Assembly (NCBI GenBank): GCA_016987375.1
Contig: PJRA01000508.1
Span: 2,870,258 to 2,932,279, forward strand
Length of the DNA: 62,022 nt
Direction: 5' to 3'
Source: Brachionus koreanus
Taxonomy: Eukaryota > Rotifera > Eurotatoria > Ploima > Brachionidae
Positions within the stretch are counted from its first letter, which is position 1, and each line of letters opens with the position of its first letter. Both the position numbers and the translations under genes were made by a program. Positions 1,016 to 34,693 of this stretch are shown here, in pieces. The notes below the pieces were generated by a model. That model was not told the DNA's origin. It saw only the letters and a list, made by a program, of their open reading frames with translations, and made no database searches.

Positions 1016-1485
1016 CGTCAACATGGAAGTTTCAGGAACACCTTCGATTAAATTATTGACTAAGTCTAATTCTCGAATATTATTTATTTCACTTAAATTC
1101 CATTTGTCAATATTCTTTATTATATTCCCATTTAAATTCAATATTTCCAAACTTGTTAAATTATTAAAAAAAGTTTCGGGAACACTTTCGATTAAATTAT
1201 AACCTATATATAATTCTCGAACATTATTTATTTCACTTAAATTCCATTTTTCAATATTCTTTATTATATTCCCATCTAAATTCAATATTTCCAAACTTGT
1301 TAAATTATTTAAAAAAGTTTCAGGAACATTTTCGTTAAAATTTTAACCTATATATAATTCTCGAACATTATTTATTTCACTTAAATTCCATTTGTCAATA
1401 TTCTTTATTATATTCCCATCTAAATTCAATATTTCCAAACTTGTTAAATTATTAAAAAAAGTTTCAGGAACACTTTCGATAAATT
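1016..1485 (-). pseudogene. LRR gene relic 1, distal part (cut off by LTR element)
   Basis: Minus-strand leucine-rich repeats of the same family as the intact gene at 25008-28813. The repeats alternate LTSLEILNLNGNIIKNI with NLIESVPETFFNN. About three 48-residue units are visible, with a frameshift near 1321-1345, so the fragment is not translatable as a whole. It abuts the LINE fragment on one side, with a short repeated CAACATGGA at the junction. On the other side it stops at the LTR at 1486 and resumes at 12853, so the retrotransposon pair split one LRR copy. Confidence 0.85.
1481..1485. repeat. 5-bp target-site duplication AAATT (left; partner 12853-12857)
   Basis: AAATT immediately precedes the first LTR and follows the third LTR. 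Removing the composite and one copy restores the LRR-family sequence cgataaattataacc, which matches sibling repeats in the same relic. No such duplication flanks the middle LTR. Confidence 0.9.
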
Positions 1486-1774
1486 TGTTATAGGGCTGAT
1501 TTACTTAGTAGATCGGTTGCTAAGCATTACTCTACTTGTTTGATAAATATATTAATGGCGGTTAATTAATATATTATCTTAATTGGTAAACTAGGCGACT
1601 CTAATTGATGGCTTTGAGACGAATCAGAGATAGTATTTAAGAGAAATATTTTTTTTTCTTTTTTTAGTTTTTTTGTTGAAACTTTTATCTGTTTTGTGTA
1701 GTAATAAAGATATTTAAAACCATCTATTCTTTTTATAATACAACGAATATAATGAAGGAAATCACACTACAACA
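1486..1774 (+). repeat. 5' LTR of first gypsy element
   Basis: 289 bp, TG...CA ends. It holds a TATTTAAG promoter-like box near 1633 and AATAAA at 1703-1708. Unusually, it also contains the Gag start codon at 1752. It is identical by eye to the LTRs at 7025-7313 and 12564-12852. Confidence 0.92.
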
Positions 1775-2726: not shown

Positions 2727-2729
2727 AAT

Positions 2730-5700
2730 TTGATGAATGAGATCCAAACTCGGAAAAATATACGTAATGACAGAACAAGCCCTCGTAACCGCCATAATTG
2801 GCAACCTAACAATAAGCGTTTTAAGAAGAATTTTTGCAGAAACAATAGGAATATTAATCAAGGAGCAACCAATACAAATGATCAACAAACAAATTATCCG
2901 GAACCCGTTCAAGTTCAGGGTAAGTTGACTCCTGCTTCCCCGAAAGAGACTAGGAAATGCTTCAATTGTCAACAAGTTGGCCACATAAGATATTATTGCC
3001 CTAACAAAGTGAGGTCTTCGGATTCACCTCTTAATCAAGTGATGACAGCTGCTAACCAGTTCTCTAATTTAATAAATAGTTTTGAATTGTGTATGAAGCT
3101 ATTTTTTGACCCTGTCTTATTTCACAGCCCATTCAGTCCTGTAATGGAACCTAACTCTTTAAATAAAAATGAAATTAACCTGCACAAATCCCTCTCTTTA
3201 GACTTAACCAATAGTAATTTAATACAATTATCCGCTAAAGTCTTTGGTGTTGAAGTTTCGAATGTTCTGGACACAGGAGCCAGCAGAAGTATGATTAGTA
3301 AATCATGCTTGACTAAGTTTTTAGGAATTGCAGATCAAAACAGCATTAAATTTAGTAGATTAACTAGACCTTTAAAAATTAAATTGGGTGACTCTTCGGT
3401 TACCGAGTGTAAAATGAGAGTAAATTTGGAAATTGAAATTGAAGGTGACTCTTATCCATTGGATTTATTAGTTTTAGAAAGTTTGCCATATGATGTTCTT
3501 TTTGGGATGGACTTTATTATACTATATGATGTATTGATCCGACCCGCCTCTAAGACAATTTTAATTGAACCAGACCAGGTAATAACAAACAGATGTGAAA
3601 TTCCGGAAAACTATTTGACTTTATCAGAAAATGCTTACATTCCTTCCTTTTGCGAGACCGTAGTATCAGTAACAAAGAATAAATCTTTTAGTGGTGACGG
3701 GATCGTAACTAGTTATTCACCACTTGTAGATAGGTTTGGAGTTTATGTTGGTAAAGGAGTTATTTCCAATAATAGCAATATGTGTGTTTTAGCTAATTTA
3801 ACTAGAGGGACTGTTTGTTTGCCAAAAGGGACCATCGTCGCAAAGATTAACGAGGTTAAAGCTCAAGATATGCTATTACTAGCTGCGGAAAAAATTGGAA
3901 AAATACAGGAAAAATCTAAGGATATAATAGAGGACGAAATAACCACTGAAGAGATAGATCTTTCTGGTACCACCTTAGATGACCAACAAAAGAAACAGCT
4001 TACGAAACTTTTGGTCGAGTATAACAGTTTATTTAGTCATAGTCTTGGGAATCCAGGTTCTGCTAAGGGGGTAGTACATCACATTAATACGGAAACAAAT
4101 AATCCAGTGAGTTGTGCTCCCAGAAGAGTGGGTATAAGAGAGAAACAGGTCATAGATGAACATGTAAAGGAAATGGTAGATAAGAATATAATCCAGCCTT
4201 CACGTAGTCCTTGGGCATCTCCTGTCACACTAGTAAATAAAAAGGATGGTTCAATAAGGTTTTGTGTAGACTATCGTAAGTTAAATAATCTGACGAAGAA
4301 AGATGTGTATCCATTACCGAGGATTGATGATACACTTAATAGCCTTGGAAAATGTAGTTTCTTTTCCACATTGGATTTAACAACTGGTTATTACCAAATC
4401 CCTGTAGCCCCTCGGGATAGAGAAAAGACTGCATTTATAAGTCATGCAGGGCTGTATGAGTTTCAGGTAATGCCTTTTGGGCTTACAAACGCTCCTGCTA
4501 CTTTCCAAAGGTATATGGACATTGTATTTGCAGGCTTGAAGTGGCTTTGTTGTTTAGTTTATCTAGATGACATAATCATTTTTTCAGGAACATTTGAGGA
4601 ACATGTAGAGCATTTAAAATTGGTTTTCGATAGGATGAAAGAATATAACTTAAAAATTAAAAGATCAAAATGTTCTTTTTGTAGAGAAGATTTAATTTTT
4701 CTGGGACATAAGGTGACCGCTGCTGGAATTAGCCCAGATCCACAAAAAGTAAAAGCTATTCTAGAAATTGTAATACCAAAGAATAAAGCAGATTTAAGAA
4801 CTTTCTTGGGATTATGTGGATACTACCGTAAATTTATAGCAGACTTTGCTAGAATCGCGGCTTGTCTATATGATTTGACGCGTGAAACTTCTGATTATGT
4901 TTGGGAAGATAAGCACCAGAAAAGTTTTGAGAAGCTTAAAAACTTACTTTCAAAATATCCTATTTTAAGACACCCTGACTTTAATTTTCCTTTTACAATC
5001 CAAACAGACGCTAGTGATATCGGGTTAGGTGCTGTATTGTGCCAAATAATAGATGGAGAGGAAAGAGTTATTGAGTATATAAGCAGAAGCTTACAGCCCT
5101 CTGAAAGGAAGTGGTCGGTGAGAGAAAAGGAGGCTCTTGGAATTATTTGGGCTTGTGAACAATTTCGACCTTTTATTATTGGGACAAAATTTATAATTGA
5201 AACTGATCATGAGTCCTTAAAATGGCTAATGGATGCACAAACCCCTGCGCGTCTTGTCAGATGGGCTTTAAGGTTAAGTGAATTTGATTTTGAAATAAGG
5301 CATAAAAGAGGTTCAAAAAATTCAAATGCTGACGCCTTATCTCGTTTAGTTCCGTGTAGAGAAGAGCCGGAAATTGAAGATATAGACTCTTACCTTTTAT
5401 TGAGAGACAATCTGTTAAGGATCGAAAGTCCACTTCAGAATCTGAACATTATAAAAGAGCAAACTAAGGATCCCTATTTACTTTCGATTTATAATAGTAT
5501 TTTAAAGGATCCAAACTCCAGTTATTCTTCTAAATTTACCATTAAAAATTCTATTCTTTATTTTAAAAGCCAAAACCAACAAAATCTACTTGTTGTTCCC
5601 CAACAACTGATTCCTATTGTACTAGAACATTACCATCATAAAGCTCTGGCTCATGTGGGTAGGGATAAGATGTTTTTCCACCTAAGAAATAAATTTTATT

Positions 5701-6671
5701 GGCCGGGAATGTATGAGGATGTTAGAAGATGGGTAGGCGCATGTTTAAGTTGTAACCGGGTAAAACCAAACCAACCGATACAGAACGGGAAGTTGCAACC
5801 TATTCGTGTATCATACCCCTTTGAGGTTGTAGGAATGGATATTTTGGGTCCTTTAAAAAGGTCAAGAAATGGTTTCAAGTACGTTTTAGTTCTAGTTGAT
5901 CTTTTCACAAACTGGGTGGAAGCCTGTCCACTTAAAACTTTAGAGGCGGCCGAAGTAGCGAAGAAATTTTATAGTATTATTATTACTCGCCATGGATGTC
6001 CTAGTAAAGTATTGACTGATCAAGGTACTCAGTTTACTTCGAATCTTTTTAAAACACTGTGTAAAAAATTTGGGATTTACAAATTAGAGTGTAGCAGTAA
6101 ACATCCACAAACCAATGGTAAAACGGAAAGATTTAATCGATTCTTGTCCAATTCATTAGCAATGCTAGTTAATGAAAGGCAAAATAATTGGGATGAACTC
6201 ATTGATGATATATTGTTAGCATATAGAGTTACTATCAACATGACGATTAGAGAAACACCTTTCTTTCTCTTATATGGTAGAGACGCTGTTTTGCCTTCCG
6301 ATGTAATGTTTGGTGTTTCAAGAAGTTTGGGACCTGATTATTCTGAAGACAAATTTGATTATAAAATAAAATTGTTGAATAGATTGAGAGCAAGTTATGA
6401 GAATATAGAGACACAAAGGGAAAAACAAATGAATTATTACAAAGAACGGTATGATAAAACCCATAAGAATGTCAATTTTGAAATAGGCTCGGAAGTTATG
6501 GTTTATTGGCCTGTACCTAAACAGGGTTATTCTCAAAAGCTTCTTCCAAGTTGGCAAGGCCCATACAAGGTACTTGCGAAACTAAGTGACTTGACTTATA
6601 GAATAGAAAAGGATAACAAGTCATTTGTGATTCATGTCCAACGATTAAGACCATACAAGCGATTTGAATAG
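2730..6671 (+). CDS. pol: Pol polyprotein (NC-PR-RT-RH-IN), gypsy copy 1
   Basis: 1313 codons, uninterrupted. In order: a CX2CX4HX4C zinc knuckle at residues 77-90, aspartic protease DTGA at 181-184, reverse transcriptase with [13 protein letters not shown] near 547 and YLDD at 611-614, RNase H ([22 protein letters not shown]), the integrase HHCC finger, and the integrase core with [16 protein letters not shown] and the KTERFN glutamate. A GPY/F-type end ([10 protein letters not shown]) closes the protein. There is no chromodomain and no env. Order PR-RT-RH-IN is that of Ty3/gypsy. The frame equals that of gag, separated by one TAA, so expression needs stop bypass or internal initiation. All catalytic motifs look intact. 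Confidence 0.93.
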
Positions 6672-7024: not shown

Positions 7025-7313
7025 TGTTATAGGGCTGATTTACTTAGTAGATCGGTTGCTAAGCATTACTCTACTTGTTTGATAAATATATTAATGGCGG
7101 TTAATTAATATATTATCTTAATTGGTAAACTAGGCGACTCTAATTGATGGCTTTGAGACGAATCAGAGATAGTATTTAAGAGAAATATTTTTTTTTCTTT
7201 TTTTAGTTTTTTTGTTGAAACTTTTATCTGTTTTGTGTAGTAATAAAGATATTTAAAACCATCTATTCTTTTTATAATACAACGAATATAATGAAGGAAA
7301 TCACACTACAACA
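7025..7313 (+). repeat. Shared middle LTR
   Basis: It serves as the 3' LTR of unit 1 (polypurine tract upstream) and as the 5' LTR of unit 2 (primer-binding site at 7317 downstream). It is 289 bp, matching the two outer LTRs by eye, and has no target duplication of its own. Confidence 0.92.
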
Positions 7314-8265
7314 ACTTGGCGCTGCGACTAAAAGAACCACGGAGAGAGAAGAAGAAAGTGCAATTGGAAGCAAACAAAGAGGTCCTGGTAGACCAAAGAA
7401 AAAAACAAGAAGTGAGGTAGTCTTCCAGGGAGATATCGACAGTGACGATACAGTTTTGGATGAACCGGCTCACATAAGAAAAAAAAAAATCGTAAGAAGA
7501 GAAGAAGTCCTTAAGGATGATGTCGGTTGTGAAGCAACAGTTATGACTACTCACCCTCAATATCCAATAAATATTAACATTCGGCTATATAATGGATTAC
7601 CAGGAGAGGACTTTGAACAATGGCTTGCTGAATTTAAAACCAAAACATCGAGAGTTGGTGAAAATTATAAGATAGAGCTCTTTAAAGCTTATATGGGATC
7701 GAAGGCAAGGGAATGTATGGAAGGCCTTAATGAACAAGATATGGACACTTTTGACAAATTAAGTTTCGAGATGAGAAAGCTCTTTTGTAAGACAAATCCT
7801 GAGCATTATTTGCTAGAATTAACTAAGCTCAAACGTGACTCATCCGATTCTCTAGTTTTCTTTAGCTTGAAGATAGCTCAAATGGTAAAGAAAGCTTATC
7901 CTATGATCGCCGATCCAATTGTGTTAGAAAAATTGAAATTGGAAAACTTTTTAAGAGGATTGTCGAATGATTTGGCTGCAATGGTTCGTGTAAGAAAACC
8001 AACTGATCTACAAGAGGGATTACGTTTTGCCGAGATTTGTGAAGTTGATAAAGGAACTAAAAAGAAGGAACAACTTTTTGTCAATGAAATAAAATCAGAA
8101 GAGCCTGATTCTGAAGGCAGTGACAGACAAAGTACAAACACATCCACTTCAAAAACTGATTCTAAAAAGAAGATAGACAATGATTCGAAAAACTCAGAAA
8201 ACAACTTGTCAACTTTATATCAAAAATTAAACAAACAAGTAAACCAAGTGAGACAACACTATTAA
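7291..8265 (+). CDS. gag: Gag polyprotein, gypsy copy 2
   Basis: 324 codons, identical in residues to the first-copy Gag. It starts within the shared middle LTR and ends at the same TAA before the zinc knuckle. That the same stop is present in both units shows it predates their duplication and is not a new mutation in one unit. Confidence 0.88.
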   Translation: MKEITLQQLGAATKRTTEREEESAIGSKQRGPGRPKKKTRSEVVFQGDIDSDDTVLDEPAHIRKKKIVRREEVLKDDVGCEATVMTTHPQYPININIRLYNGLPGEDFEQWLAEFKTKTSRVGENYKIELFKAYMGSKARECMEGLNEQDMDTFDKLSFEMRKLFCKTNPEHYLLELTKLKRDSSDSLVFFSLKIAQMVKKAYPMIADPIVLEKLKLENFLRGLSNDLAAMVRVRKPTDLQEGLRFAEICEVDKGTKKKEQLFVNEIKSEEPDSEGSDRQSTNTSTSKTDSKKKIDNDSKNSENNLSTLYQKLNKQVNQVRQHY

Positions 8266-8268
8266 AAT

Positions 8269-11200
8269 TTGATGAATGAGATCCAAACTCGGAAAAATAT
8301 ACGTAATGACAGAACAAGCCCTCGTAACCGCCATAATTGGCAACCTAACAATAAGCGTTTTAAGAAGAATTTTTGCAGAAACAATAGGAATATTAATCAA
8401 GGAGCAACCAATACAAATGATCAACAAACAAATTATCCGGAACCCGTTCAAGTTCAGGGTAAGTTGACTCCTGCTTCCCCGAAAGAGACTAGGAAATGCT
8501 TCAATTGTCAACAAGTTGGCCACATAAGATATTATTGCCCTAACAAAGTGAGGTCTTCGGATTCACCTCTTAATCAAGTGATGACAGCTGCTAACCAGTT
8601 CTCTAATTTAATAAATAGTTTTGAATTGTGTATGAAGCTATTTTTTGACCCTGTCTTATTTCACAGCCCATTCAGTCCTGTAATGGAACCTAACTCTTTA
8701 AATAAAAATGAAATTAACCTGCACAAATCCCTCTCTTTAGACTTAACCAATAGTAATTTAATACAATTATCCGCTAAAGTCTTTGGTGTTGAAGTTTCGA
8801 ATGTTCTGGACACAGGAGCCAGCAGAAGTATGATTAGTAAATCATGCTTGACTAAGTTTTTAGGAATTGCAGATCAAAACAGCATTAAATTTAGTAGATT
8901 AACTAGACCTTTAAAAATTAAATTGGGTGACTCTTCGGTTACCGAGTGTAAAATGAGAGTAAATTTGGAAATTGAAATTGAAGGTGACTCTTATCCATTG
9001 GATTTATTAGTTTTAGAAAGTTTGCCATATGATGTTCTTTTTGGGATGGACTTTATTATACTATATGATGTATTGATCCGACCCGCCTCTAAGACAATTT
9101 TAATTGAACCAGACCAGGTAATAACAAACAGATGTGAAATTCCGGAAAACTATTTGACTTTATCAGAAAATGCTTACATTCCTTCCTTTTGCGAGACCGT
9201 AGTATCAGTAACAAAGAATAAATCTTTTAGTGGTGACGGGATCGTAACTAGTTATTCACCACTTGTAGATAGGTTTGGAGTTTATGTTGGTAAAGGAGTT
9301 ATTTCCAATAATAGCAATATGTGTGTTTTAGCTAATTTAACTAGAGGGACTGTTTGTTTGCCAAAAGGGACCATCGTCGCAAAGATTAACGAGGTTAAAG
9401 CTCAAGATATGCTATTACTAGCTGCGGAAAAAATTGGAAAAATACAGGAAAAATCTAAGGATATAATAGAGGACGAAATAACCACTGAAGAGATAGATCT
9501 TTCTGGTACCACCTTAGATGACCAACAAAAGAAACAGCTTACGAAACTTTTGGTCGAGTATAACAGTTTATTTAGTCATAGTCTTGGGAATCCAGGTTCT
9601 GCTAAGGGGGTAGTACATCACATTAATACGGAAACAAATAATCCAGTGAGTTGTGCTCCCAGAAGAGTGGGTATAAGAGAGAAACAGGTCATAGATGAAC
9701 ATGTAAAGGAAATGGTAGATAAGAATATAATCCAGCCTTCACGTAGTCCTTGGGCATCTCCTGTCACACTAGTAAATAAAAAGGATGGTTCAATAAGGTT
9801 TTGTGTAGACTATCGTAAGTTAAATAATCTGACGAAGAAAGATGTGTATCCATTACCGAGGATTGATGATACACTTAATAGCCTTGGAAAATGTAGTTTC
9901 TTTTCCACATTGGATTTAACAACTGGTTATTACCAAATCCCTGTAGCCCCTCGGGATAGAGAAAAGACTGCATTTATAAGTCATGCAGGGCTGTATGAGT
10001 TTCAGGTAATGCCTTTTGGGCTTACAAACGCTCCTGCTACTTTCCAAAGGTATATGGACATTGTATTTGCAGGCTTGAAGTGGCTTTGTTGTTTAGTTTA
10101 TCTAGATGACATAATCATTTTTTCAGGAACATTTGAGGAACATGTAGAGCATTTAAAATTGGTATTCGATAGGATGAAAGAATATAACTTAAAAATTAAA
10201 AGATCAAAATGTTCTTTTTGTAGAGAAGATTTAATTTTTCTGGGACATAAGGTGACCGCTGCTGGAATTAGCCCAGATCCACAAAAAGTAAAAGCTATTC
10301 TAGAAATTGTAATACCAAAGAATAAAGCAGATTTAAGAACTTTCTTGGGATTATGTGGATACTACCGTAAATTTATAGCAGACTTTGCTAGAATCGCGGC
10401 TTGTCTATATGATTTGACGCGTGAAACTTCTGATTATGTTTGGGAAGATAAGCACCAGAAAAGTTTTGAGAAGCTTAAAAACTTACTTTCAAAATATCCT
10501 ATTTTAAGACACCCTGACTTTAATTTTCCTTTTACAATCCAAACAGACGCTAGTGATATCGGGTTAGGTGCTGTATTGTGCCAAATAATAGATGGAGAGG
10601 AAAGAGTTATTGAGTATATAAGCAGAAGCTTACAGCCCTCTGAAAGGAAGTGGTCGGTGAGAGAAAAGGAGGCTCTTGGAATTATTTGGGCTTGTGAACA
10701 ATTTCGACCTTTTATTATTGGGACAAAATTTATAATTGAAACTGATCATGAGTCCTTAAAATGGCTAATGGATGCACAAACCCCTGCGCGTCTTGTCAGA
10801 TGGGCTTTAAGGTTAAGTGAATTTGATTTTGAAATAAGGCATAAAAGAGGTTCAAAAAATTCAAATGCTGACGCCTTATCTCGTTTAGTTCCGTGTAGAG
10901 AAGAGCCGGAAATTGAAGATATAGACTCTTACCTTTTATTGAGAGACAATCTGTTAAGGATCGAAAGTCCACTTCAGAATCTGAACATTATAAAAGAGCA
11001 AACTAAGGATCCCTATTTACTTTCGATTTATAATAGTATTTTAAAGGATCCAAACTCCAGTTATTCTTCTAAATTTACCATTAAAAATTCTATTCTTTAT
11101 TTTAAAAGCCAAAACCAACAAAATCTACTTGTTGTTCCCCAACAACTGATTCCTATTGTACTAGAACATTACCATCATAAAACTCTGGCTCATGTGGGTA

Positions 11201-12210
11201 GGGATAAGATGTTTTTCCACCTAAGAAATAAATTTTATTGGCCGGGAATGTATGAGGATGTTAGAAGATGGGTAGGCGCATGTTTAAGTTGTAACCGGGT
11301 AAAACCAAACCAACCGATACAGAACGGGAAGTTGCAACCTATTCGTGTATCATACCCCTTTGAGGTTGTAGGAATGGATATTTTGGGTCCTTTAAAAAGG
11401 TCAAGAAATGGTTTCAAGTACGTTTTAGTTCTAGTTGATCTTTTCACAAACTGGGTGGAAGCCTGTCCACTTAAAACTTTAGAGGCGGCCGAAGTAGCGA
11501 AGAAATTTTATAGTATTATTATTACTCGCCATGGATGTCCTAGTAAAGTATTGACTGATCAAGGTACTCAGTTTACTTCGAATCTTTTTAAAACACTGTG
11601 TAAAAAATTTGGGATTTACAAATTAGAGTGTAGCAGTAAACATCCACAAACCAATGGTAAAACGGAAAGATTTAATCGATTCTTGTCCAATTCATTAGCA
11701 ATGCTAGTTAATGAAAGGCAAAATAATTGGGATGAACTCATTGATGATATATTGTTAGCATATAGAGTTACTATCAACATGACGATTAGAGAAACACCTT
11801 TCTTTCTCTTATATGGTAGAGACGCTGTTTTGCCTTCCGATGTAATGTTTGGTGTTTCAAGAAGTTTGGGACCTGATTATTCTGAAGACAAATTTGATTA
11901 TAAAATAAAATTGTTGAATAGATTGAGAGCAAGTTATGAGAATATAGAGACACAAAGGGAAAAACAAATGAATTATTACAAAGAACGGTATGATAAAACC
12001 CATAAGAATGTCAATTTTGAAATAGGCTCGGAAGTTATGGTTTATTGGCCTGTACCTAAACAGGGTTATACTCAAAAGCTTCTTCCAAGTTGGCAAGGCC
12101 CATACAAGGTACTTGCGAAACTAAGTGACTTGACTTATAGAATAGAAAAGGATAACAAGTCATTTGTGATTCATGTCCAACGATTAAGACCATACAAGCG
12201 ATTTGAATAG
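8269..12210 (+). CDS. pol: Pol polyprotein, gypsy copy 2
   Basis: 1313 codons with the same protease, RT, RNase H and integrase motifs as copy 1. It differs at two residues: T for A in the integrase HHCC region (codon at 11182) and T for S near the C-terminus (codon at 12070). A third difference at 10164 is silent. No disabling lesion is seen. Confidence 0.93.
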
Positions 12211-12852: not shown

Positions 12853-13600
12853 AAATTATAACCTATATATAATTCTCGCATATTATTCATTTCAAAAAAA
12901 TTCCATTTGTCAATATTCTTTAATATATTCCCATTTAAATTCAATATTTCCAAACTTTTTAAATTATTTTAAAAGGTTTCAGGAACACTTTCGATAAATT
13001 TATAACCTATATATAATTCCGAACATTATTTATTTCACTTAAATTCCATTTGTCAATATTCTTTATTCTATTCCCATTTAAATTCAATATTTCCAAACTT
13101 GTTAAATTATTAAAAAAAGTTTCAGGAACATTTTCGATAAAATTATAACCTATATATAATTCTCGCATATTATTCATTTCAAAGAAATTCCATTTGTCAA
13201 TATTCATTAATATATTCCCTTTTATATTCAATATTTCCAAACTTGTTAAATTATTAAAAAAAGTACCAGGAACACTTTCGATAAAATTATAACCTATATA
13301 TAATTCTCGAACATTATTTATTTCACTTAAATTCCATTTGTCAATATTCTTTAATATATTCACTTTTAAATTCAATATTTCCAAACTTGTTAAATTGTCA
13401 AAAAAAGTTGCATCGACACTTTCGATTAAATTATTATTCAAATTTAGTTCGTTTATATTATTGAACGAATTGAAAAAATTTATTGGTATTTCTTTTATGT
13501 TTGAAAAGCCTAAATATTGATCCTTTTTGTTTAAATCTATTTTTATGAATTCATTCGATGTTTTTAAATATACATACTTTATCCATTTTTAATTTTTTTT
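12853..13600 (-). pseudogene. LRR gene relic 1, 5' part
   Basis: Minus-strand continuation of the relic at 1016-1485. It includes the conserved N-terminal block (IPINFFNSFNNINELNLNNN, about 13440-13510) homologous to the start of the intact gene, then several 48-residue LRR units ending toward 12853. Lesions are a missing base near 13018 (aattccgaac where siblings have aattctcgaac), an altered run near 12965-12975, and a candidate ATG near 13590 that is out of frame with the LRRs. About 150-200 bp of the upstream sequence is shared with the relic at 15453-15967, so the copies include promoter-proximal DNA. Confidence 0.85.
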
Positions 13601-15218: not shown

Positions 15219-15415
15219 GGACTTAATGCTAACGATTTGTACAAGATTGGAATAGATCGAGCCGTACCGTTGATGGTGCACGTCTACTAGCCAGTTAAGC
15301 GCACAGTCCGAGTGTCCTAGTGATAAATGGTTGAATTCAAATCAAATGAATGTAACATCGTCTAGTGAACTAGAGTCTGTTTGTGTTGACATTAAGCGTA
15401 TTGAGCCGTGCTCGC

Positions 15416-15452
15416 TACACATTGACTCACAAGAATGGGTCCGTGTACAGTT
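15416..15452. repeat. 37-bp direct repeat flanking LRR relic 2 (partner 15968-16004)
   Basis: Both copies read tacacattgactcacaagaatgg, then four variable bases, then tgtacagtt. They encode the same plexin peptide HIDSQEW. The insertion at 15453-15967 lies exactly between them, so this part of plexin was duplicated when the LRR fragment arrived. Confidence 0.8.
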
Positions 15453-15967
15453 CAATTTAATATTACACTGAATTTATTTGACTGGATTTCCATTTATTTA
15501 TATTTTTTATTCTATCTCCATTTAAATTTAATATTTTCAAACTTTTTAAATTATTAAAAAAAGTTTCATCGACACTTTCGATTAAATTATTGTTCAAATA
15601 TAGTTCGTTTATATTATTGAACGAATAGAAAAAAATTTTTGGTATTTCTTTTATGTTTGATAAGCCTAAATATAGTGCATTTTTGTTTAAATCTATTTTT
15701 TTTAATTCATTCGATTTTTTTAAATATACATACTTTTCTTAAGTTCTTTCCTTTTCCATTTTTAATTTTTTTTGAGTTTTTTTAACTTTTGATTTCTTAA
15801 TTTTTAAATTTAATTTTTGATTTTTAAAAAATATATATACTTTTTACTGTTTGTTAATTATTTTTTAAAATATATTACTAATTAAATATTATATTACTGT
15901 TTCTATCTTTGGTGAATAGTAAGGATAATATAATTTTCCATACAAAAATTTTCCTTACTAATCTTGT
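15453..15967 (-). pseudogene. LRR gene relic 2 (5' fragment inserted in plexin relic)
   Basis: On the minus strand a start ATG near 15757 gives MEKERT, a stop, then EKYVYLKKSNEL and IKEIPKIFFYSFNNINELYL, then one LRR pair (NNLIESVDETFFNN, LKSLKILNLNGDRIKNI). It ends near 15480. About 190 bp of shared upstream sequence is carried along. Homology matches the N-terminal region of the intact LRR gene at 28813 and relic 1. It is a partial copy of about 500 bp, flanked by 37-bp direct repeats. Confidence 0.8.
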
Positions 15968-19779: not shown

Positions 19780-20698
19780 TCTTAACGAACCGATTACCAT
19801 GAGTGAATTGGTTCTGGTATTAAAAAAGCTTAGGGATGATGCAGCATCAGGACCAGATTAAATTCATAATTTAATTTTAAAAAATCTACCTAATAACTAC
19901 CTAAAAGAACTTATTAATCTATTTAATCTTAGTCTCGAATATGGCACGATTCCTAGAGCATGGAAAACTGCAAACATAACCATGATACCTAAAAAATCAT
20001 CTCAATTACAAGACCCGTCCAATAATAGACCAATTAGTATGACAAGCTGTCTTGGAAAGGTGCTTGAGCGCATAATCTATCTTAGATTATATAGATTTCT
20101 AGAGCAAAAGTCTTTACTTCTTCAAGAACAGTCAGGTTTTAGGAAGCATAGACGAACTGCTGACAATCTTTTCTTTCTTATCCAAAAAATTGTTGAATCT
20201 TTTAATAGAAAGAAAAAAGTGAACGCTTTGTTTTTTGACATTTCGAAAGCTTTTGATAGGGTTTGGCATGACGAATTAATATACAAGCTAATAAAAATGA
20301 ACCTCCTACATTATTTTACTTACTGGATAAAGTATTTTCTTGACTTAAAGAAATTTAAAGTAATGAGTACTGAGGAATTTTCAATTACAGCAGGTGTACA
20401 TCAAGGCTCGGTTATTAGTCCATTATTATTCAGTATTTTTATTAACGATATCCCTAGAAAAAACAAAACAAACAATGAATACTCCCTCCTTTTTGCAGAC
20501 GACCTTGTCATCTTTTTTATTTATAAAAAACAGGGTAATTTAGAAAATAAAATCAATAAATACTTGAATGAACTAGAACAGTGGTTTTGCTGGAAAATGA
20601 AAATATCATTTGGAAAGTCTTGTTCGATGGTCTTTTCAAAACAAAACAAGGAAAAGGCTGATCTTAACTTAAGAATCTATGGAAATAAAAAAATATAA
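19780..20698 (+). pseudogene. 5'- and 3'-truncated LINE reverse transcriptase
   Basis: RT of a jockey/CR1-like LINE. MSELVLVLKKLRDDAASGPD is followed by a TAA at 19859-19861 where the family has a coding residue. The frame then continues to 20698 with AWKTANITMIPKK, NRPISMTSCLGKVLERII, motif A LFFDISKAFDRVWH, motif B GVHQGSVISPLLFSIFINDI and the catalytic FADD (F-A-D-D in place of Y-A-D-D). It ends abruptly with a short A-rich stretch. The sequence differs from the LINE family at 1-1015, so at least two LINE families are present. Confidence 0.85.
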
Positions 20699-22823: not shown

Positions 22824-24453
22824 TTAAAAACATTTTTTGAAAAATAATTTTCTTTTGTTATTTACTCTCTTGTTCTTATTCTTTATTTTCATTCCTATTT
22901 TTTTCAAATAATTGTTAATTTCTGAAATTTTTGATTCTAAATCATTGATTTTTTCATCCAATTCGAATGTTTTATCATTAATTTTTTGATTTTGAAAATT
23001 GATTTGATCTAATGTTGACAAAACTTTTGAAAAATCATTTCGTCTTGTTTTTTTTTCTTTTTTTTTTTTTTCTCTTTTTCCTTTTTTTTCTTCAAAATAA
23101 TTTTTTATTTTTTCGATATCATCAAATTTTTTGAAAGGAAAATCTAAAAGCATTATTTTATTAATTGTTTCATCAAATTCTCGATTTCTTTTATCTAAAT
23201 CAGATGTTTTATCATATATTCGTTGAATTTGATCATTTAACTGATTTAAACTATTCAAAATTTCTCTTTGATTGTTCTTATTACCTCTTTCTTTGTCATG
23301 AATTAAATTATTAAATTTTCTTTCATTTTTTTCATTTAAATAATTATTTTGAAAAAAGAGTTTTTTGTATTTTAACCATTTTAATTTTATCCCTTTGTTT
23401 TCCACATATTTTTTTAATTTTTCCAAAATTTTCTCTTTTAAAACTTGAACAAATTTAATTTTTTTTAATTTCTCTATTTTTAAAATGAAATCAATTTTAT
23501 TTAGTGTGTCGTCTTTTTCAGCTCTTTTAAACAATTCGCTTACTTCATCTAATGAAATACCTGTGAAAATATTAAGCATCAGAATCGACATAAAATAAAT
23601 AAATACTCCATAAATAATAAAATTAATGAAAGAAAATATATTTAGCTCATCAATTCCCATGTTTTCTGTTTCCAAAGACCCAATCATCATTGTGATTGTT
23701 TTAAATAAGCCAAGCTCAAATGAAGAATTAAATGAAACAATATAGTCTTCTTGATAAGGACTGAAATTTCTCTCCAAATTTTGAAAAGAGAGACAAAAAC
23801 CTATTAAAAATAGTATGACAATTACTATCAAATCATTTGCTTTTCTTAATATTTTCCCAATTACTCGAATATATTTTCCAAAACGAAAAAATTTGGCCAT
23901 TTTAATTACCAAAACACTGTATGCAAGAACAATTGTAATTGAAAATAAAACAATATTTGCTTGATTTAAATCCAAAACAATCGTCGTAAATGCGAGAATA
24001 TAGGTGATTAGTTCTATTTGGTTTTTCTTTGAAGTAAAATAGGATTTTTCAAAATTTGTATTTTCATTGTAATCTTCGTTTATTTTCTTTTTCTTATTTA
24101 AGTTCTTAAAGAAAATAACAGTAGAATAAATAATCTGGGAAATTTCAAACGATGAATTAATGATCAAAAAAATGAGTGAGGTAATTTTTGAATACCCTTT
24201 CCATGAGCCAGATAAAAATTTATATTCTTTAGTATATATTGAATAAAATATTAGAAAAATACCATAATTGATTAGAAAAAAATAATAAATAAATATTGGC
24301 ATTCCTTTCCATGTTCTATCAAGTGTTTTTTTAAGATTTTGGTTATTAAGAATTCCATCATCTTGATTTTTTTTTAAGTTTTTTAAAAATTCTTCAAAAA
24401 TTCGATCATTTCTGTCACTTTTAGCACATATTTTTTGTTTCATTTGCTCAGTC
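22824..24453 (-). CDS. Six-transmembrane TRP-like cation channel (3' exon of LRR-TRP gene)
   Basis: 539 codons from the ATG at 24443, or 542 and a partial codon from the acceptor at 24453. Hydrophobic segments fall at about residues 49-70, 88-112, 142-158, 163-185, 203-222 and 271-297. A pore-loop region (SSFELGLFKTITMMIGSLET, 240-259) lies between the fifth and sixth. The sixth ends LMLNIFTGISLDEVSELFKR, resembling the TRPA-type S6/TRP-helix rule (LMNLLIGLAVGDI). The C-terminus is lysine-rich and predicted coiled coil (about 395-530). Only 48 residues precede S1, too short for the usual cytoplasmic repeat domain of a TRP channel. The upstream LRR exon can supply one by a frame-keeping splice. 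The family assignment is by pattern; a polycystin-like or other Ion_trans member is possible. Confidence 0.8.
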
Positions 24454-25007
24454 CTTAAAAAATTAGTTAAAAACTAAAATTATATTATTTATAATATGAT
24501 TAAAAGATTTTAATTAAACTTAAGTTTAAATTTATTGAAAAAATATGAAAAATCACAATAATTCGTTTAAATGAGTGTATTTTTTTAAGGGCACAAGTTT
24601 TGTCGAAGTCAAAGGCTAATTATTTATTATTATTTTAAAAAAATCGATAAAAATTAATAAAAAAAATTAGCTAATTTTTTGAAAAAAAAAATCAAAATTT
24701 AAGGCTTTTGCAATGAATTCACTAAATTATTTATCAATTCCTGTTTAAGTCCAGCTGTTAGCCTTTTTTTTAATTCAGGTCATATCAACTGACAACCTTT
24801 TTAAAAAAATTAAAAAAAAAAAGCTCGGACTTTGATTATAATTTTTAAAAACTGAGACTTCAATTTTGAATTTTTATAAAACTCTATCATTTCTTTTTTA
24901 AGAAATAAAAAGTTAAATGTTATTTTTTAAAGAACAAGGGCAAATGAAAAACTTTCCCATTTAAAAATAAAATTTACAAAAAATATAAAAAATGAATCAA
25001 AACTTAC
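24454..25007 (-). other. Predicted 554-bp intron joining LRR and channel exons
   Basis: Minus-strand donor AAAA|GTAAGT starts at 25007; the TAA stop of the LRR frame is bases 2-4 of this donor. The acceptor is TAACTAATTTTTTAAG|G ending at 24454, with a branch-like CTAAT about 10 bases before the AG. The exon ends with two bases of a codon (AA) and the next exon supplies G, giving AAG ACT GAG CAA ATG, in frame with the channel. Intron content is AT-rich and shows no gene. Confidence 0.65.
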
Positions 25008-28000
25008 TTTTGTTTTTTGTTTTCTTCAAAATTCTTGATATATTCCAAACAATCATTGTTCAATAATGAATCTATTAACTTTAGCCATTGTTTTTCAAAA
25101 TAACTTTTAAAATTAAAAATTTTCTTAAACAGTGAAGTAAAATTATCTGGTATTTTATCATCCAAAAATCCTAAATATTTAAAAAATATTTCAAAAAAAC
25201 GAATATATAGTTCTTCATCTTGATTTTTTTCCAATAATCGCCAACAATCTTTAAAATCAATATTTTCATAAAAGTTTTTTTCATAAATGAATTCGTTATC
25301 TTTCATTAGAGAATCGAATAAATGTATATCCCCTCTTTGAATAAGATAATAAAATGTTTTAGATGAAAAAATCTTGAAATCAACGTTGATTAATTTTAAG
25401 TTGTTTATTTTGTTTGATACAATTATTTTTAAACCTAAAATAAATTCAGCAGAAAAGCTATTTAGAATAATAATTATATCCAGAAAAGTGTATTTAAAGC
25501 TATTAAAATCACTTATAAATTCTTTCACTCCTGAAAAACTATCAAAAAAAATATCATTTGTAGAAATTTGTTTAAAGAAATAAATAAAATAACTGAAATC
25601 GTATGACAAATTCCGAACTAAATATTTCATATTCTCATTTGGAGCTACATTGAAAATTCGTAAAATATTAAAATATTGGTTATTCACGTTATAAATTGAA
25701 AAATTCTCATACTTCCGAAAAAAATTATTTTTTTTTTTTTTTAAGTAATCACGATCAAACATAAAATTTTTCGAAAAAACAAGATCTACAGGTTCAAATA
25801 TGAATTCGTATTTAAAAGATATTTCAAATTCATTTAAACTATATAAATTAAATCTAAATAAGGAGTTAATGTTGATTCTATTATCTGTAAGGTCAATCAA
25901 ATTTACCTTGAATCGAATATTTGGAAAATCTCGAATTAAATTATTAGCTAAATTCAATTCTTCAAGAAAATCGAATTCCCATTTATCAATATTCTTTATT
26001 CTATTTCCATTTAATTTAAAAATTCTGAGACTTTTTAAATTATTAAAAAAAGATTCAGGAACACTTTCGATCAAATTATTACCTAAATCTAATCCTTGAA
26101 CGTTACTTATTTCCTCGAAATTCCAATTATCTATATTCTTTATTTTATTTCCGTTTAAATTTAATGTTAAAAGACATTTAAAATTATTAAAAAAACTATC
26201 AGGAATACTTTCGATTAAATTATTACTAATATCTAATTCAAATATTTTCATTTTTACCACGAAATTCCAATTATCAATGTTCTTTATTTTATTCCTACTC
26301 AAATTCAATTTAAGTAGACTTTTTAAATTTATAAAGAAAGAATCAGGAAAACTTTCAATTAAATTATTACCAAAATCTAATATTTTTATATTATTGTCTC
26401 CGTTCAAAAAACAATCATCAATATTCCTTATTATATTGCCATTTAAATTTAATATATCCAAACATTTGAAATTATTAAAAAAAGTTTTAGAAACACTTTC
26501 GATTAAATTATTCCCAATATCTAATTCCTGCATATCCTTTAATCCACTCAAATTCCAGTCATCAATATCTTTTATTCTATTCCCATTTAATTTTAAAATA
26601 TGTAAATATTTTAAATTTTTAAAAAAACTATCAGGAACTCTTTCGACTAAATTATTACTAATATCTAATTCCCATATATTCTTTAAACCACTCAAATTCC
26701 ATTTATCAATATCCCTAATTTTATTCCCATATAACTTTAAAATTCGTAAATTTTCTAAATTATTAAAAAAACTATCAGGAACACTTTTGATTAAATTATT
26801 CCCAATATCTAATTTCTGCATATCCGTTAATCTACTCAAATTCCAGTCATCAATATCTTTTATTCTATTCCCATTTAATTTTAAAATATGTAAATATTTT
26901 AAATTTTTAAAAAAACTATCAGGAACTCTTTCGATTAAATTATAACTAATATCTAATTCCCATATATTCTTCATTTCCATGAAATTCCAATTATCAATAT
27001 TCTTAATTTTATTCCCATTAAGCTTGAAAATTCGTATAATTTTTAAATTTTTAAAAAAACTATCAGGAACACTTTCGATTAAATTATTACTAAAATCTAA
27101 TTCAAAAATTTTCTTTATTTCACTAAAATTCCAATTATCTATGCTCTTAATTTTATTTCCATTTAAATTTAAATTTTGTAAATTTTTTAAATTATTAAAA
27201 AAATTATCAGGAACACTTTCGATTAAATTATAACTAATATCTAGTTCCCATACATTCTTAATTTCACTGAAATTCCAGTTATGAATATACTTAATTTTAT
27301 TCCCATTTAACTTTAAATTTCTTAGACTTTTTAAATTTTTAAAAAAACTATCAGGAACTCTTTCGATTAAATTATTACTAATATCTAATTCCAATATATT
27401 CTTAATTTCACTGAAATTCCAATTATCGATTTTCTTGATTTTATTTCCATTGAATTTTAATACTAACAGACTCTTTAAGTTTTTAAAAAAAGTATATGGA
27501 ATACTTTCGATTAAATTATTCCCAATATCTAATTCCTGCAAATCATCTATTTCACTGAAATTCCAATTATCTATGCTCTTAATTTTATTCCCATTTAGCT
27601 TTAATATTCCCAGATTTTTTAAATTTTTTAAAAAATTATCAGGAACACTTTTGATTAAATTATTACTAAACTCTAATTCCAATAATTTATCTTTTTCAGT
27701 GAAATTCCAATTATCAATTGTTTTAATCTTATTTCCATTTAGAAATAATTTTTTCAAGCTTAAATAATTAAACAAAGCATTTGGAACCTTTTCGATTAAA
27801 TTATTACTAATATCTAATTCCCATATTTTCTTTAAAAAACTGAAATTCCATTTATCAATGTTCTTTATTTTATTTCCATTTAAATTTAAAATTTGTAAAT
27901 TTTCTAAATTATTTAAAAAAGTATCTGGAACACTTTCGATTAAATTTTTACCAATATCTAATTCCCATAAAACCTTTAATCCACTGAAATACCAGCTTTC

Positions 28001-28813
28001 AATGTTCTTTATTTTATTCCCATTTAACTTTAAAATTCGTAAATTTTCTAAATTATTAAAAAAAGTATCAGAAACACTTTCGATTAAATTATCACATATA
28101 TCTAATTGCCATATCTTCTTTATTCGACTTAGATTCCAATTATCAATATTCTTTATTTTATTCCTATTTAATTTCAAAATCTCCAAGCTTTTAAAATTAT
28201 TGAAAAAAGTTTCAGCAACATTTAAGATTAAATTATTCCCAATTTCTAATTCCTGAAAATCAACTATTTCACTGAAATTCCAATCATCAATTATCTTAAT
28301 TTTATTTTTATTCAGATATAATTTTTTCAAGCTCTTTAATTTATTAAAAAAAGTTCCCGGAACACTTTCGATTAAATTACTACTTAAATCTAATTCCCAT
28401 ATATTCTTTAAACCATTCAAATTCCATTTATCAATATCCTTAATTTTATTCCCATTTAACTTTAAAATTCGTAAATTTTCTAAATTATTAAAAAAAGTAT
28501 CAGAAACACTTTCGATTAAATTATTACCAATATCTAATTCCTGCAAATCATCTATATCACTGAAATTCCAATTATCTATGCTCTTAATTTTATTACCATT
28601 TAGCTTGAAAATTCGTAGACTTTTTAAATTATTAAAGAAAAATCCATCGAAACTTTCGATTATATTATTATTTAAATTTATTTCGTTTAAATTTTTGAAC
28701 GAATTGAAAAAATTAATTGGTAATTCATTTATATCTAAATGGTTTAAACATAGTTTGTCCTGAGTTGTATCAATTTTTATTGATTCATTCAATGTATATA
28801 AATTTTCATTCAT
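25008..28813 (-). CDS. Giant leucine-rich-repeat protein (5' exon of LRR-TRP gene)
   Basis: 1269 codons as a single open frame. After an N-terminal cap (INELPINFFNSFKNLNEINL, near residue 30) come about 19 units of 48 residues, each a pair of LRRs: LKNLRILKLNGNKIKNIDNW and LWELDISNNLIESVPDTFFN. This makes roughly 39 LRRs to about residue 960. A helical, repeat-free region of about 300 residues follows, with an ankyrin-like stretch (FYYLIQRGDIHLFDSLMKDN, near 1130). There is no signal peptide, so a cytosolic location is likely. The start ATG at 28813 matches the start region of the relics; the frame stays open upstream to a CAG acceptor at 28865, so an upstream exon or trans-spliced leader is possible. 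The apparent stop is part of a GTAAGT donor, so the protein probably continues into the channel exon. Confidence 0.85.
26540..27115 (-). repeat. 288-bp recent in-array duplication of LRR units
   Basis: Blocks at about 26540-26680 and 26828-26968 are almost identical over about 130 bp (same codons for KYLHILKLNGNRIKDIDDWN) and lie exactly 288 bp apart, i.e. two 48-residue units. This shows repeat number still changing by unequal exchange or slippage. Confidence 0.7.
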
Positions 28814-29074
28814 TTGTTCAGTTATTTCTTCCTTTATTTTTAGTTTCTTGAGTTTTTTATTTAACTGAAATCTTATTTTAATGTAAAATTATCATAAGAA
28901 AACTTTTAAAATGTAACTTTTGTAGACAAAATATATTTTTTAATATCAATCACCATAGCAACAAAAAAATTTAATATCTAGGATTAAAGAATTCAGTTAA
29001 ATAAAAAACTCATTAAGAAACTAAAAATAAAAAAAGAAATTACTGAAGAAATGTAAGAAAATTAATATACATTT
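28814..29074. other. Upstream region of LRR-TRP gene
   Basis: Minus-strand leader. An open codon run from a TTTCAG acceptor (ending 28865) runs to the ATG, then AT-rich sequence with one arm of an inverted repeat (28925-28970). No TATA box was identified with confidence. Confidence 0.5.
28925..28970 (+). repeat. About 46-bp inverted repeat arm (partner 29518-29562)
   Basis: ACAAAATATATTTTTTAATA followed by TCAATCACCATAGCAACAAA here appears as the reverse complement at 29518-29562 with about three mismatches. The two arms enclose LRR relic 3. Each arm lies about 90-130 bp upstream of an LRR start but in opposite orientations. Confidence 0.75.
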
Positions 29075-29445
29075 TATGAATAAATCAAAAATGTATCAGC
29101 AACACTATCGATTAAATTATTGCCAAAATCTAATTCCTGAATTAAATTTATTTCACTTAAATTCCAATTATCATAATTTTTATATTTTATTCCTATTTAG
29201 ATTTAATTTTTCATACTTTTTAAATTATTAAAAAAAATCCATCGAAACTTTCGCAAAACATCAATATCATATATTTCGATTATATTATTCAAATTTATTT
29301 CGTTTAAATTTTTGAACGAATTGAAAAAATTAATTGGTAATTCATTTATATCTAAATAGTTTAAACATAGTTTGTCCTGAGTTATATCAATTTTTATTGA
29401 TTCATTCAATGTATATAAATTTTCATTTATTTGTTCAGTTATTTC
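29075..29445 (-). pseudogene. LRR gene relic 3 (5' end copy next to the intact gene)
   Basis: On the minus strand the leader TAACTGAACAAATAAATGAA aligns with that of the intact gene (AACAAATGAATGAA), but the ATG has become ATA. The next residues NENLYTLNESIKID and LDINELPINFFNSFKNLNEI match it almost exactly. A short insertion (ATATATGATATTGATGTTTTG on this strand, about 29251-29275) disrupts the first LRR, a TAA follows KSMKN at about 29203, and one more degenerate LRR pair runs to 29075. It is a tandem partial duplicate. Confidence 0.85.
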
Positions 29446-29562
29446 TTCCTTTATTTTTAGTTTTTAATTTTTAGTGTTTTTTATAACTAAAATTTTGAAT
29501 TTTACAAATCAAATTTTTTTTGTTGCTATGGAGATTGATATTAAAAATTATATTTTGTATAC

Positions 29563-31640: not shown

Positions 31641-32251
31641 AGCAAATGTTACTCCAGTATACAAGAAGAAAGGTAGTAAAACAAATCCTGAAAACTACCG
31701 TCTAATATCGCTTTTATCGATATTAATAAAAATAATGGAGAAGCTAATAAGAGATGAAATGCTAATGCATTTATGGGAACACACTATAAAATAATCCGTC
31801 ACTATAAAGTAATTGCTTTATAAGTAATAAATTACTTTCTGTTATCGATGCTAAATCCTGTGTAACCAACTTGCTTGAAAGCTAGATATTATTTCTGAGG
31901 CCTTGAATAGAAGATTCAGTGCTGTGGTAGTATGTTTAGATTTCTCTTTTTAGATTTTTGCGTTGCTCGAAAATTTTCTACAATAAAGGAAACAGAGAGT
32001 AGTAATAGGACAGTATGAATCTTATTGGTTTGATGTGCTAAGTGGGGTTCACCAAGGTTCAGTTCTTGATCCGTCACTATTTTTGATCTTTTTAGATGAT
32101 TTACAAGAGCTAGTGAGTAACTTTGCAAATGTGTGGATGACAGTAAATTTTTAGTGTCATTAGAAATACAAGTAATTAAATGCTAATTCAAGATGACATT
32201 GACAAGATGGTTGAGTTGTAAAAACGTTGGAGTATGGAATTTAATGAATCC
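31640..32251 (+). pseudogene. LINE RT fragment beside copy B
   Basis: Same family as 1-1015 and 21870-22254: VTPVYKKKGSKTNP then LISLLSILIKIMEKLIRDEM, after which the frame decays (a duplicated taatc/actataaa stretch near 31790-31830 and several stops). Nucleotide similarity to GTGCTAAGTGGGGTTCACCA persists at 32035-32055. It is cut off by the N gap. Confidence 0.85.
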
Positions 32252-33049
32252 NNNNNNNNNNNNNNNNNNNNNNNNNNNNNNNNNNNNNNNNNNNNNNNNN
32301 NNNNNNNNNNNNNNNNNNNNNNNNNNNNNNNNNNNNNNNNNNNNNNNNNNNNNNNNNNNNNNNNNNNNNNNNNNNNNNNNNNNNNNNNNNNNNNNNNNNN
32401 NNNNNNNNNNNNNNNNNNNNNNNNNNNNNNNNNNNNNNNNNNNNNNNNNNNNNNNNNNNNNNNNNNNNNNNNNNNNNNNNNNNNNNNNNNNNNNNNNNNN
32501 NNNNNNNNNNNNNNNNNNNNNNNNNNNNNNNNNNNNNNNNNNNNNNNNNNNNNNNNNNNNNNNNNNNNNNNNNNNNNNNNNNNNNNNNNNNNNNNNNNNN
32601 NNNNNNNNNNNNNNNNNNNNNNNNNNNNNNNNNNNNNNNNNNNNNNNNNNNNNNNNNNNNNNNNNNNNNNNNNNNNNNNNNNNNNNNNNNNNNNNNNNNN
32701 NNNNNNNNNNNNNNNNNNNNNNNNNNNNNNNNNNNNNNNNNNNNNNNNNNNNNNNNNNNNNNNNNNNNNNNNNNNNNNNNNNNNNNNNNNNNNNNNNNNN
32801 NNNNNNNNNNNNNNNNNNNNNNNNNNNNNNNNNNNNNNNNNNNNNNNNNNNNNNNNNNNNNNNNNNNNNNNNNNNNNNNNNNNNNNNNNNNNNNNNNNNN
32901 NNNNNNNNNNNNNNNNNNNNNNNNNNNNNNNNNNNNNNNNNNNNNNNNNNNNNNNNNNNNNNNNNNNNNNNNNNNNNNNNNNNNNNNNNNNNNNNNNNNN
33001 NNNNNNNNNNNNNNNNNNNNNNNNNNNNNNNNNNNNNNNNNNNNNNNNN
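32252..33049. other. Assembly gap (798 Ns)
   Basis: Unresolved bases. The gap is flanked on the left by LINE sequence and on the right by a poly-T run, so it probably contains the rest of a repeat. Its true length is unknown. Confidence 1.
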
Positions 33050-33388
33050 CTTTTTTTTTTTTAGTAATTGCTTTATAAGCAATTATAATTGACTAATTCT
33101 AAAGCTTTATTGCAAAGTATCCGATTTAACTTAGAATGCTTTTTTACATTATAAAAGTTTTATTAATCTTAAAAAGGTAATTTTAAAGATTTTTGAAAAA
33201 ACTCTAAACATGAGTAATTATTTAATTTTTTTTACAAGAATGAATAAATATTTAGGAAAAAATTTTTTTTCAAAAATTAATAACAAAATTAAATATAAAA
33301 AAATCCGATAAATTTATTTAATTTTTTTTTTTAATTGTTTTGATTAATTCAGAATTAAGATTGAAAACAATATTTAAAATTAAAAAAA
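33050..33388. other. AT-rich spacer, no gene seen
   Basis: Poly-T and AT-rich sequence left of the mariner element; nothing recognisable. Confidence 0.6.
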
Positions 33389-33390
33389 TA

Positions 33391-34693
33391 CAGGTTGATC
33401 GTATTTTATTGAAACACTTTTTTTTTAATTATAATTTTTGAATGTGTCGTCGATGTATATCTTTAGTCTGCTCTATGTGTTCGCCATTCTTCGCTGATAT
33501 TAATCGACACCTTCTTTTCCAGGCATTAAATACTTTTCGACACGTTACGACTTCAATTTGTGACCATATCTCTTGAGAAAGTTTCCAAACTCCATCTAAG
33601 GTCCGAGCTCTTCTTTTTGAAAGCTGTTGCTTTATGTAACCGAAGCCATAAAAGTCAAGCGGACTAGCGTCTGGAGCTTTGACAGGTATGTCGTCTTTTT
33701 CAAGATATGAAATACCAATACTTGATTTTAGTTCCTCTAAATATTCGGTTGTCGAATAGGCTGTATGGCTAGATGCTTTGTCATGATGGAAAAACACCTT
33801 GTGCATCTCGTTTTGGTACAAGCGAGGAAGATGCTTAGTGAACAATGGTTTCAAAACATAGTCTACGTAGTACTGTGCATTTATTTTTACTTGAGATGGT
33901 ACCCTAAACAGAGGAACCGTACCTCTTCCAGTGATTATCCCTACTATCATAAACCCTTTTCTGAAACTTTCATCTTTTTCCATTACCCAACTTTCAGGTA
34001 TACGTTCGCCTTGTTTTACGTAGCAAATCCGTCTTTCCCGGTTCGAATCTTCAAGGTAGACCAATGCTTCATCTAGTGTTACTGCATATTCGGATCTTTG
34101 ACCAGCCAGATAATTCTCATAGAGCTTCCGGCAATTGGTTTTTCGATTTTTTTTATGCTCGGCATTAAGCTTGTGAACTCTCGTTTGATTTTTGGTTTCG
34201 AGTTTTAAATCTTTATGGATAATTTTGTGGATTGTATAAAGACTCAATGAGGTTTGTTTTTGTATATCACGACGGGTCGCAGGGTTCTTTTTATTCGCTA
34301 GCCGCTTAACTTTTTGTACATTTGCCGGGGTTCTCTTAATTGGTAATGTTCGATATTGTGGCACAGGCTGCTTATTATTTTTCGCAGAACGTCTGTTACC
34401 AATGTTTTTTAGAATACGACATATAGTTGCAATGCTAACACCAACATCTTCCTCTATGAGCTTATTCTTTATTTGTCTATATGAATATTTCTCTTTGGAA
34501 AGACGCTTCACGTCTATCTCGGTTTCGGTTGAGGTTATTTTTGGCATTTGAAAATTCAAAATTTTTTTTTAAAATTTATTATGAAAGAGAATTTCATGAG
34601 GATTAAAAAAATGTATAAATGTGTTTATATTTGTAAAATTGTCCAAGGGTTATAAGCAAAACTAAAGTGTTTCAAAAAAATACGATCAACCTG
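33391..34693 (-). mobile_element. Intact DD41D mariner-type transposon, 1303 bp
   Basis: 30-bp terminal inverted repeats (CAGGTTGATCGTATTTT... CACTTT) differ at a single position (A or T at base 18) and are flanked by TA on both sides (33389-33390 and 34694-34695), the Tc1/mariner target. A complete transposase occupies almost all of the interior on the minus strand. Intact ends and reading frame suggest recent, possibly current, mobility. Confidence 0.93.
33429..34559 (-). CDS. DD41D Tc1/mariner-superfamily transposase
   Basis: 376 codons, no stops. An N-terminal helix-turn-helix pair (KYSYRQIKNKLIEEDVGVS, about residues 24-42, then a second unit to about 130) binds the terminal repeats. 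The DDE catalytic domain shows D in VTLDEALVY (about 161), D in VFFHHDKASSHTAY, and D in ASPLDFYGFG, 41 residues later, which defines the DD41D (rosa-like) group. It catalyses cut-and-paste transposition into TA in the nucleus. The stop is 8 bp from the terminal repeat. A second ATG at 34547 (MPKI) could be the true start. There are no spliced neighbours. Confidence 0.92.
   Translation of the reverse strand: MNFQMPKITSTETEIDVKRLSKEKYSYRQIKNKLIEEDVGVSIATICRILKNIGNRRSAKNNKQPVPQYRTLPIKRTPANVQKVKRLANKKNPATRRDIQKQTSLSLYTIHKIIHKDLKLETKNQTRVHKLNAEHKKNRKTNCRKLYENYLAGQRSEYAVTLDEALVYLEDSNRERRICYVKQGERIPESWVMEKDESFRKGFMIVGIITGRGTVPLFRVPSQVKINAQYYVDYVLKPLFTKHLPRLYQNEMHKVFFHHDKASSHTAYSTTEYLEELKSSIGISYLEKDDIPVKAPDASPLDFYGFGYIKQQLSKRRARTLDGVWKLSQEIWSQIEVVTCRKVFNAWKRRCRLISAKNGEHIEQTKDIHRRHIQKL

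Follow-up and report, generated by a model that had tools for sequence, protein, structure and literature searches.

A predicted two-exon gene placing an LRR array ahead of a TRPA-like pore in the rotifer Brachionus koreanus

A 62,022-nt stretch of the Brachionus koreanus genome (contig PJRA01000508.1; hereafter, the window) contains two neighboring open frames on the minus strand, the first dominated by an array of LRRs and the second resembling a TRP channel, raising the question of whether these are two genes or two exons of a single gene encoding a channel with an LRR arm. The original prediction favored the latter, and relatives of the locus elsewhere in the same genome provide a means of choosing between the two.

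Two open frames and the predicted intron between them

Both frames were recovered as originally predicted, the LRR frame at 25004-28813 (minus strand, 1269 aa) and the channel frame at 22824-24443 (minus strand, 539 aa), so that in the window copy 1269 + 539 codons remain open at 20-24% GC. The LRR frame closes at an in-frame TAA (25004-25006) that is formed by the first bases of a predicted phase-2 intron of 554 nt (24454..25007, minus strand), in which a GTAAGT donor follows an exon ending in AA and the acceptor reads TTTTTTAAG ahead of the G that opens the next exon. The arithmetic of this junction was reproduced, with exon 1 ending at 25008, the intron running from 25007 to 24454, and exon 2 starting at 24453 to give a predicted joined frame of 1811 aa without a stop codon. 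Exon 1 (25008..28813, minus strand) would encode a short N-terminus, ~39 LRRs of 24 residues extending to about residue 970, and a linker of ~300 residues, based on matches to LRR_8, the spacing of the repeat motif, and conservation of the linker in 7/7 aligned loci. Exon 2 (22824..24453, minus strand) would encode a pre-S1 segment, a TRPA-like pore region spanning S1-S6, and a long, charged, helical C-terminus ending at the stop codon, based on matches to TRPA1 and on hhalign comparison with ankyrin-bearing loci.

The 5' start of the gene, including the ATG at 28813, lies within a segment (28666..28846, minus strand) that is 98% identical over 181 nt to a copy at 29283-29463. This duplicate of the first 181 nt, which includes the ATG, sits 617 nt upstream, with a decayed LRR stretch between the copies, and inverted arms (28771-28849 and 29015-29093, 85%) are also found between them. 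Short LRR-like fragments akin to the repeats of the gene occur at ~13010-13117, 15373-15561, and 1022-1171 (minus strand). Several other frames in the window resemble mobile elements by eye: tandem, near-identical frame pairs (324 + 1313 aa) at 1752-6671 and 7291-12210 look like gag/pol of a Ty3/gypsy element, a 376-aa frame at 33429-34559 (minus strand) like a Tc1/mariner transposase, and a 238-aa frame at 19982-20698 like part of a reverse transcriptase. An Rfam scan of the window returned 0 matches. Masked stretches reading N occur at ~32250-33060 in the window, in genomic segments L025/L026, at ~4070-4945 in L027, and in parts of L023 and L024, and frames that cross them do not count as evidence.

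Related loci and the choice between one gene and two

The genome (83.3 Mb, 92 contigs) was searched with the channel of the window as query, which returned 11 matches at 10 loci, two of the matches falling at one locus. The channel of locus C3b recovered the same 10 loci, and that of C9 recovered 9 of those 10. LRRs were present upstream on the same strand at 7/10 loci (the window, C5, C18, C20, C26, C3b near C3:2317000, and C9), and ankyrin arrays were present at 3/10 (C4 twice, and C10). When compared to the PDB, C10 matched TRPA1 across both its ankyrins and its channel (3.4e-45), and solved NOMPC was matched as well. Outside these 10 loci, C50 (L031 4473-6149) carries an LRR-linker frame that ends at a phase-2 donor, GTAACT preceded by GG; no channel exon for C50 was found in the 3.7 kb downstream or among the matches of the three channel queries.

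At 6/6 comparable loci, a count that leaves aside C9 (masked) and C50 (exon 2 not found), the LRR frame enters a donor-like site and an AG precedes the opening of the channel frame, both in phase 2, placing the predicted intron at the same position and in the same phase throughout. Because C20 and C26 are recent copies, these amount to five independent cases. The predicted introns range widely in length, from 88 nt in C3b through 180 in C20, 181 in C26, 427 in C5, and 554 in the window to 1572 in C18. The acceptors were picked to make the phase fit; in an unforced check, the earliest AG within the open stretch ahead of a conserved anchor was in phase 2 in 6/6. Three introns from the ankyrin genes served as a control and have donors of GTAAGT or GTAATA and TAG acceptors, whereas the acceptors in the window, C5, C18, and C3b are the less typical AAG. 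At C9, LRRs (LRR_8 1.7e-25) and the pore share one open frame that spans a masked stretch of ~0.9 kb. The order and strand of the two parts, the place and phase of the intron at 6/6 loci, and the open frame of C9 all support the originally predicted single, spliced LRR-TRP gene.

Further comparisons of these loci bear on the single-gene reading, on the origin of the layout, and on whether it is maintained. An hhalign comparison of the LRR-class and ankyrin-class channels aligned them from the pre-S1 segment to S6 with 99.5% probability (E 3e-22, from a single-profile comparison), with detectable homology first appearing ~27 residues from the start of exon 2. The exon-1 linker found no real partner in the ankyrin class. 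A border of detectable homology at or near the intron would fit an exchange of the 5' module. In a tree of 118 shared columns, the ankyrin loci grouped at 100 and C20 with C26 at 98, C9 fell between the classes, and branching within the LRR class mostly had low support (26-75). Identity to the window channel was 64% for C18, 59% for C5, 54% for C3b, and 46-47% for C20 and C26, and the same ranking was obtained for the linker (53, 47, 32, and 22-23%, respectively), which favors a single gene. Channel dN/dS was 0.12-0.38 in the 13 of 15 pairs for which it was computable, one of these including the interrupted C18. Linker dN/dS was computable for 3/15 pairs, of which only C20 with C26 was used, as the values for C5 with C20 and with C26 (0.57 and 0.66) are near saturation. 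C20 and C26 are 96-97% identical in their exons and 89% in the intron, and the block of DNA that they share spans both exons and stops ~1 nt past the channel stop codon, which also favors one gene. Their NG86 dN/dS values were 0.023/0.075 for the LRRs, 0.027/0.128 for the linker, and 0.015/0.085 for the channel; by YN00, the LRR part gave a dN/dS of 0.56, indicating weak constraint.

Two adjacent genes might produce the same layout, one for a soluble LRR protein and the other for a short channel, if each had a separate start (e.g., from a trans-spliced leader) and the pair was duplicated together. The original prediction allowed for an independent start of the channel, given the ACTGAaCAAATGAA likeness of the sequences before the two ATGs; that likeness is real, and C20 and C26 also carry an ATG ahead of S1 in exon 2, but the exon-2 ATG is not conserved. 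In exon 2 of C5, C18, and C3b (3/6 loci), there is no in-frame ATG ahead of the conserved pre-S1 segment, so this segment could only be translated from further 5', which weakens the case for separate starts. Retention of the LRR-linker frame at C50, with no channel exon nearby, is what two genes would allow, but the preservation at 6/6 loci of sites that resemble a donor and an acceptor in matching phase and the presence of both parts in one open frame at C9, on either side of its masked stretch, argue against them, and we consider two genes very unlikely. Instead, we infer that exons 1 and 2 are joined in the mRNA.

A single gene might also yield two products, with splicing producing the LRR channel and intron retention a soluble LRR-linker protein, possibly a decoy or regulator. 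This would add to the single-gene explanation rather than compete with it and was therefore judged apart. The donors of the window, C5, C18, C3b, and C50 all contain the in-frame TAA, those of C20 and C26 are followed by a stop ~15 codons later, and C50 resembles a copy consisting of the LRRs and linker only. However, a phase-2 GTAA donor yields a stop automatically, and its presence need not imply use; a second product of this kind seems rather unlikely. Least probable is that the layout was once functional and that the window copy, or the family, has since fallen out of use. Both exons of C18 contain stops, C5 has a broken LRR exon, and the window itself contains stray LRR fragments and the duplicated 5' end with decayed sequence between the copies, but loss of function is difficult to square with the long open frames kept in the window copy despite its low GC content, or with the low dN/dS of the channel. 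A single two-exon gene remains the preferred reading.

The repeat arm, the linker, and the pore

The LRR frame matched LRR_8 in Pfam with an E value of 3.6e-132 and 430.6 bits, compared to a curated cut-off of 27. A simple LRR motif matched 42 times in this frame, with a spacing of exactly 24 residues in 36/41 cases, and the array has a DNA period of 144 bp. About 39 of the motif matches fall in the first 960 residues, in agreement with the number of repeats originally predicted, whereas 200 shuffled versions of the same residues gave 5.6 matches on average and 12 at most.

The linker was less readily placed. It had been predicted to be partly ankyrin-like, and this was not borne out: in Pfam, neither exon 1 nor any of the 7 linkers matched an ankyrin family at E <= 1, and a PDB profile search and hhalign against the ankyrin-class linkers lent no support either. 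No relatives of the linker were found in the protein database at E <= 0.01. A structural model of the linker had a mean pLDDT of 61, with locally confident helix pairs near the linker end. Foldseek returned no match to this model at E <= 0.001, and a second structure aligner matched only its LRR end; the model neither shows nor excludes a helical-repeat fold. Hydropathy analysis detected no hydrophobic N-terminus in exon 1. A hydrophobic stretch is present at residues 1110-1131 of the window linker, and also in C5 and C50, but is absent from C20 and C26. If this stretch were to span the membrane, it could place the LRRs outside the cell, giving an alternative topology.

For the channel, the original prediction of a six-TM, TRP-like protein was upheld. 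The channel frame alone matched Ion_trans in Pfam with an E value of 4.9e-5 and 23.1 bits, slightly short of the curated cut-off of 25, and 6/6 family members matched at E <= 0.1 (best 5.3e-7). Against the PDB, the channel frame alone matched TRPA1 (7ykr) with an E value of 1.1e-7, and a profile built from the window and five relatives had the same TRPA1 structure as its sole match at E <= 0.1 (9.7e-14); NOMPC was not matched by this profile at that threshold. Hydropathy revealed five hydrophobic blocks, at residues 52-70, 91-113, 153-184, 196-227, and 268-294 in exon-2 numbering, with S3 and S4 merged. A low-confidence model of the channel (mean pLDDT 45) contained helices at 50-76, 84-120, 139-156, 161-187, 205-226, 241-256, and 269-294 (539-aa numbering), and these seven predicted helices follow the pattern expected for S1-S5, a pore helix, and S6. 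The pre-S1 segment is conserved and contains an invariant Trp. In the channel exon of C3b (L026 5930-7492), inserted sequence separating S2 from S3 contains an additional hydrophobic segment (exon-2 residues 148-166), which might be a seventh TM or reflect partial duplication of S3.

The putative selectivity filter separates the two classes of loci. In fly TRPA1 (GELD), the glycine of the filter is followed by an acidic residue, which is retained in the three ankyrin loci (GELE or GELD) and replaced by Ser in 6/6 LRR-class loci (GSLE) and by Asn in C9 (GNLE). Given that Ser stands in place of an acidic filter residue, the ion selectivity of these channels probably differs from that of TRPA1.

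Searching the protein database with the channel alignment identified two relatives, both with the GSLE filter and both covering the pore only: P0001 (383 aa), on a 2.2-kb contig, and P0002 (238 aa), from Brachionus calyciflorus. Full-length relatives with the LRR-linker-channel order were not found there at E <= 0.01, and no description of an LRR-TRP channel of this layout was found in the open-licence literature, whether on rotifers or in general. Ion_trans and LRR proteins of Phytophthora were among the nearest literature and are unrelated.

Comparison with known channels and a proposed mechanism

The closest known counterpart is TRPA1, together with the TRPA genes of this genome (C4 twice, and C10), which share with the window protein a homologous pore and pre-S1 segment and, by prediction for the window protein, a cytosolic N-terminal repeat arm at the same place. 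The window protein differs from these in having LRRs, and no match to an ankyrin family, in exon 1, and in its filter, G-S-L-E rather than G-E-L-D/E. NOMPC (TRPN) has a long ankyrin repeat arm before its TRP pore; it is similar in placing a long repeat arm ahead of the pore, but the arm is made of ankyrins in NOMPC and of LRRs here. LRRC8 anion channels unite LRRs and a channel within a single polypeptide, with the LRRs after four TMs, whereas in the window protein the LRRs precede the pore and the pore resembles that of TRPA1. Polycystin-1 (PKD1) has a signal peptide, PKD repeats, REJ/GPS and PLAT modules, and 11 TMs. No PKD, REJ/GPS, or PLAT module was detected in the window protein at E <= 1 in Pfam. 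Polycystin-1 resembles the window protein in having LRRs N-terminal to a membrane region of the TRP superfamily, but its LRRs are extracellular, lying with PKD repeats and other modules within a 3074-residue extracellular part (PMC12799467), and no such modules were matched in the window protein. Elsewhere in the window, a 665-aa frame with PKD domains (57889-59886; PF00801 8.3e-13) could be one exon of a gene resembling polycystin-1.

The genomic sequence itself shows the LRR array, the TRPA-related pore, and a conserved arrangement in two exons. Based on these, the locus is very probably one two-exon gene whose product, at ~1811 residues, would be a cation channel derived from TRPA, with ~39 LRRs and a linker specific to the family having taken over from the long ankyrin arm. 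This is a new domain architecture within a known channel superfamily. Like other TRPs, the protein may be a tetramer, in which case four LRR arms would, by analogy with TRPA1 and NOMPC, extend into the cytosol on the side occupied by the ankyrins of TRPA1. The LRR arm might serve for sensing or tethering by attaching to the cytoskeleton or to a partner protein; by the same analogy, binding to or pulling on the arms could be relayed through the linker and the pre-S1 segment to the gate. More tentatively, and with slightly more doubt than belief, we propose that these loci constitute a rotifer family of ionotropic LRR receptors. In this view, a modular exchange with its breakpoint at or close to an intron boundary gave the TRPA pore a giant LRR arm instead of its ankyrins; the new arm would detect force or a protein ligand and gate the pore directly, and the acidic residue of the filter was changed to Ser.

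Whether TRPA and NOMPC channels need their ankyrin arm as a spring or sensor is debated. A family with an LRR solenoid in the place of this arm, in a genome that also encodes ankyrin-bearing relatives, would represent a natural domain-swap experiment. If the proposal is correct, the protein would be an ionotropic LRR receptor that combines LRR recognition and ion entry within one molecule, and such an LRR-TRP channel would give an animal a way of coupling LRR recognition directly to ion flux.
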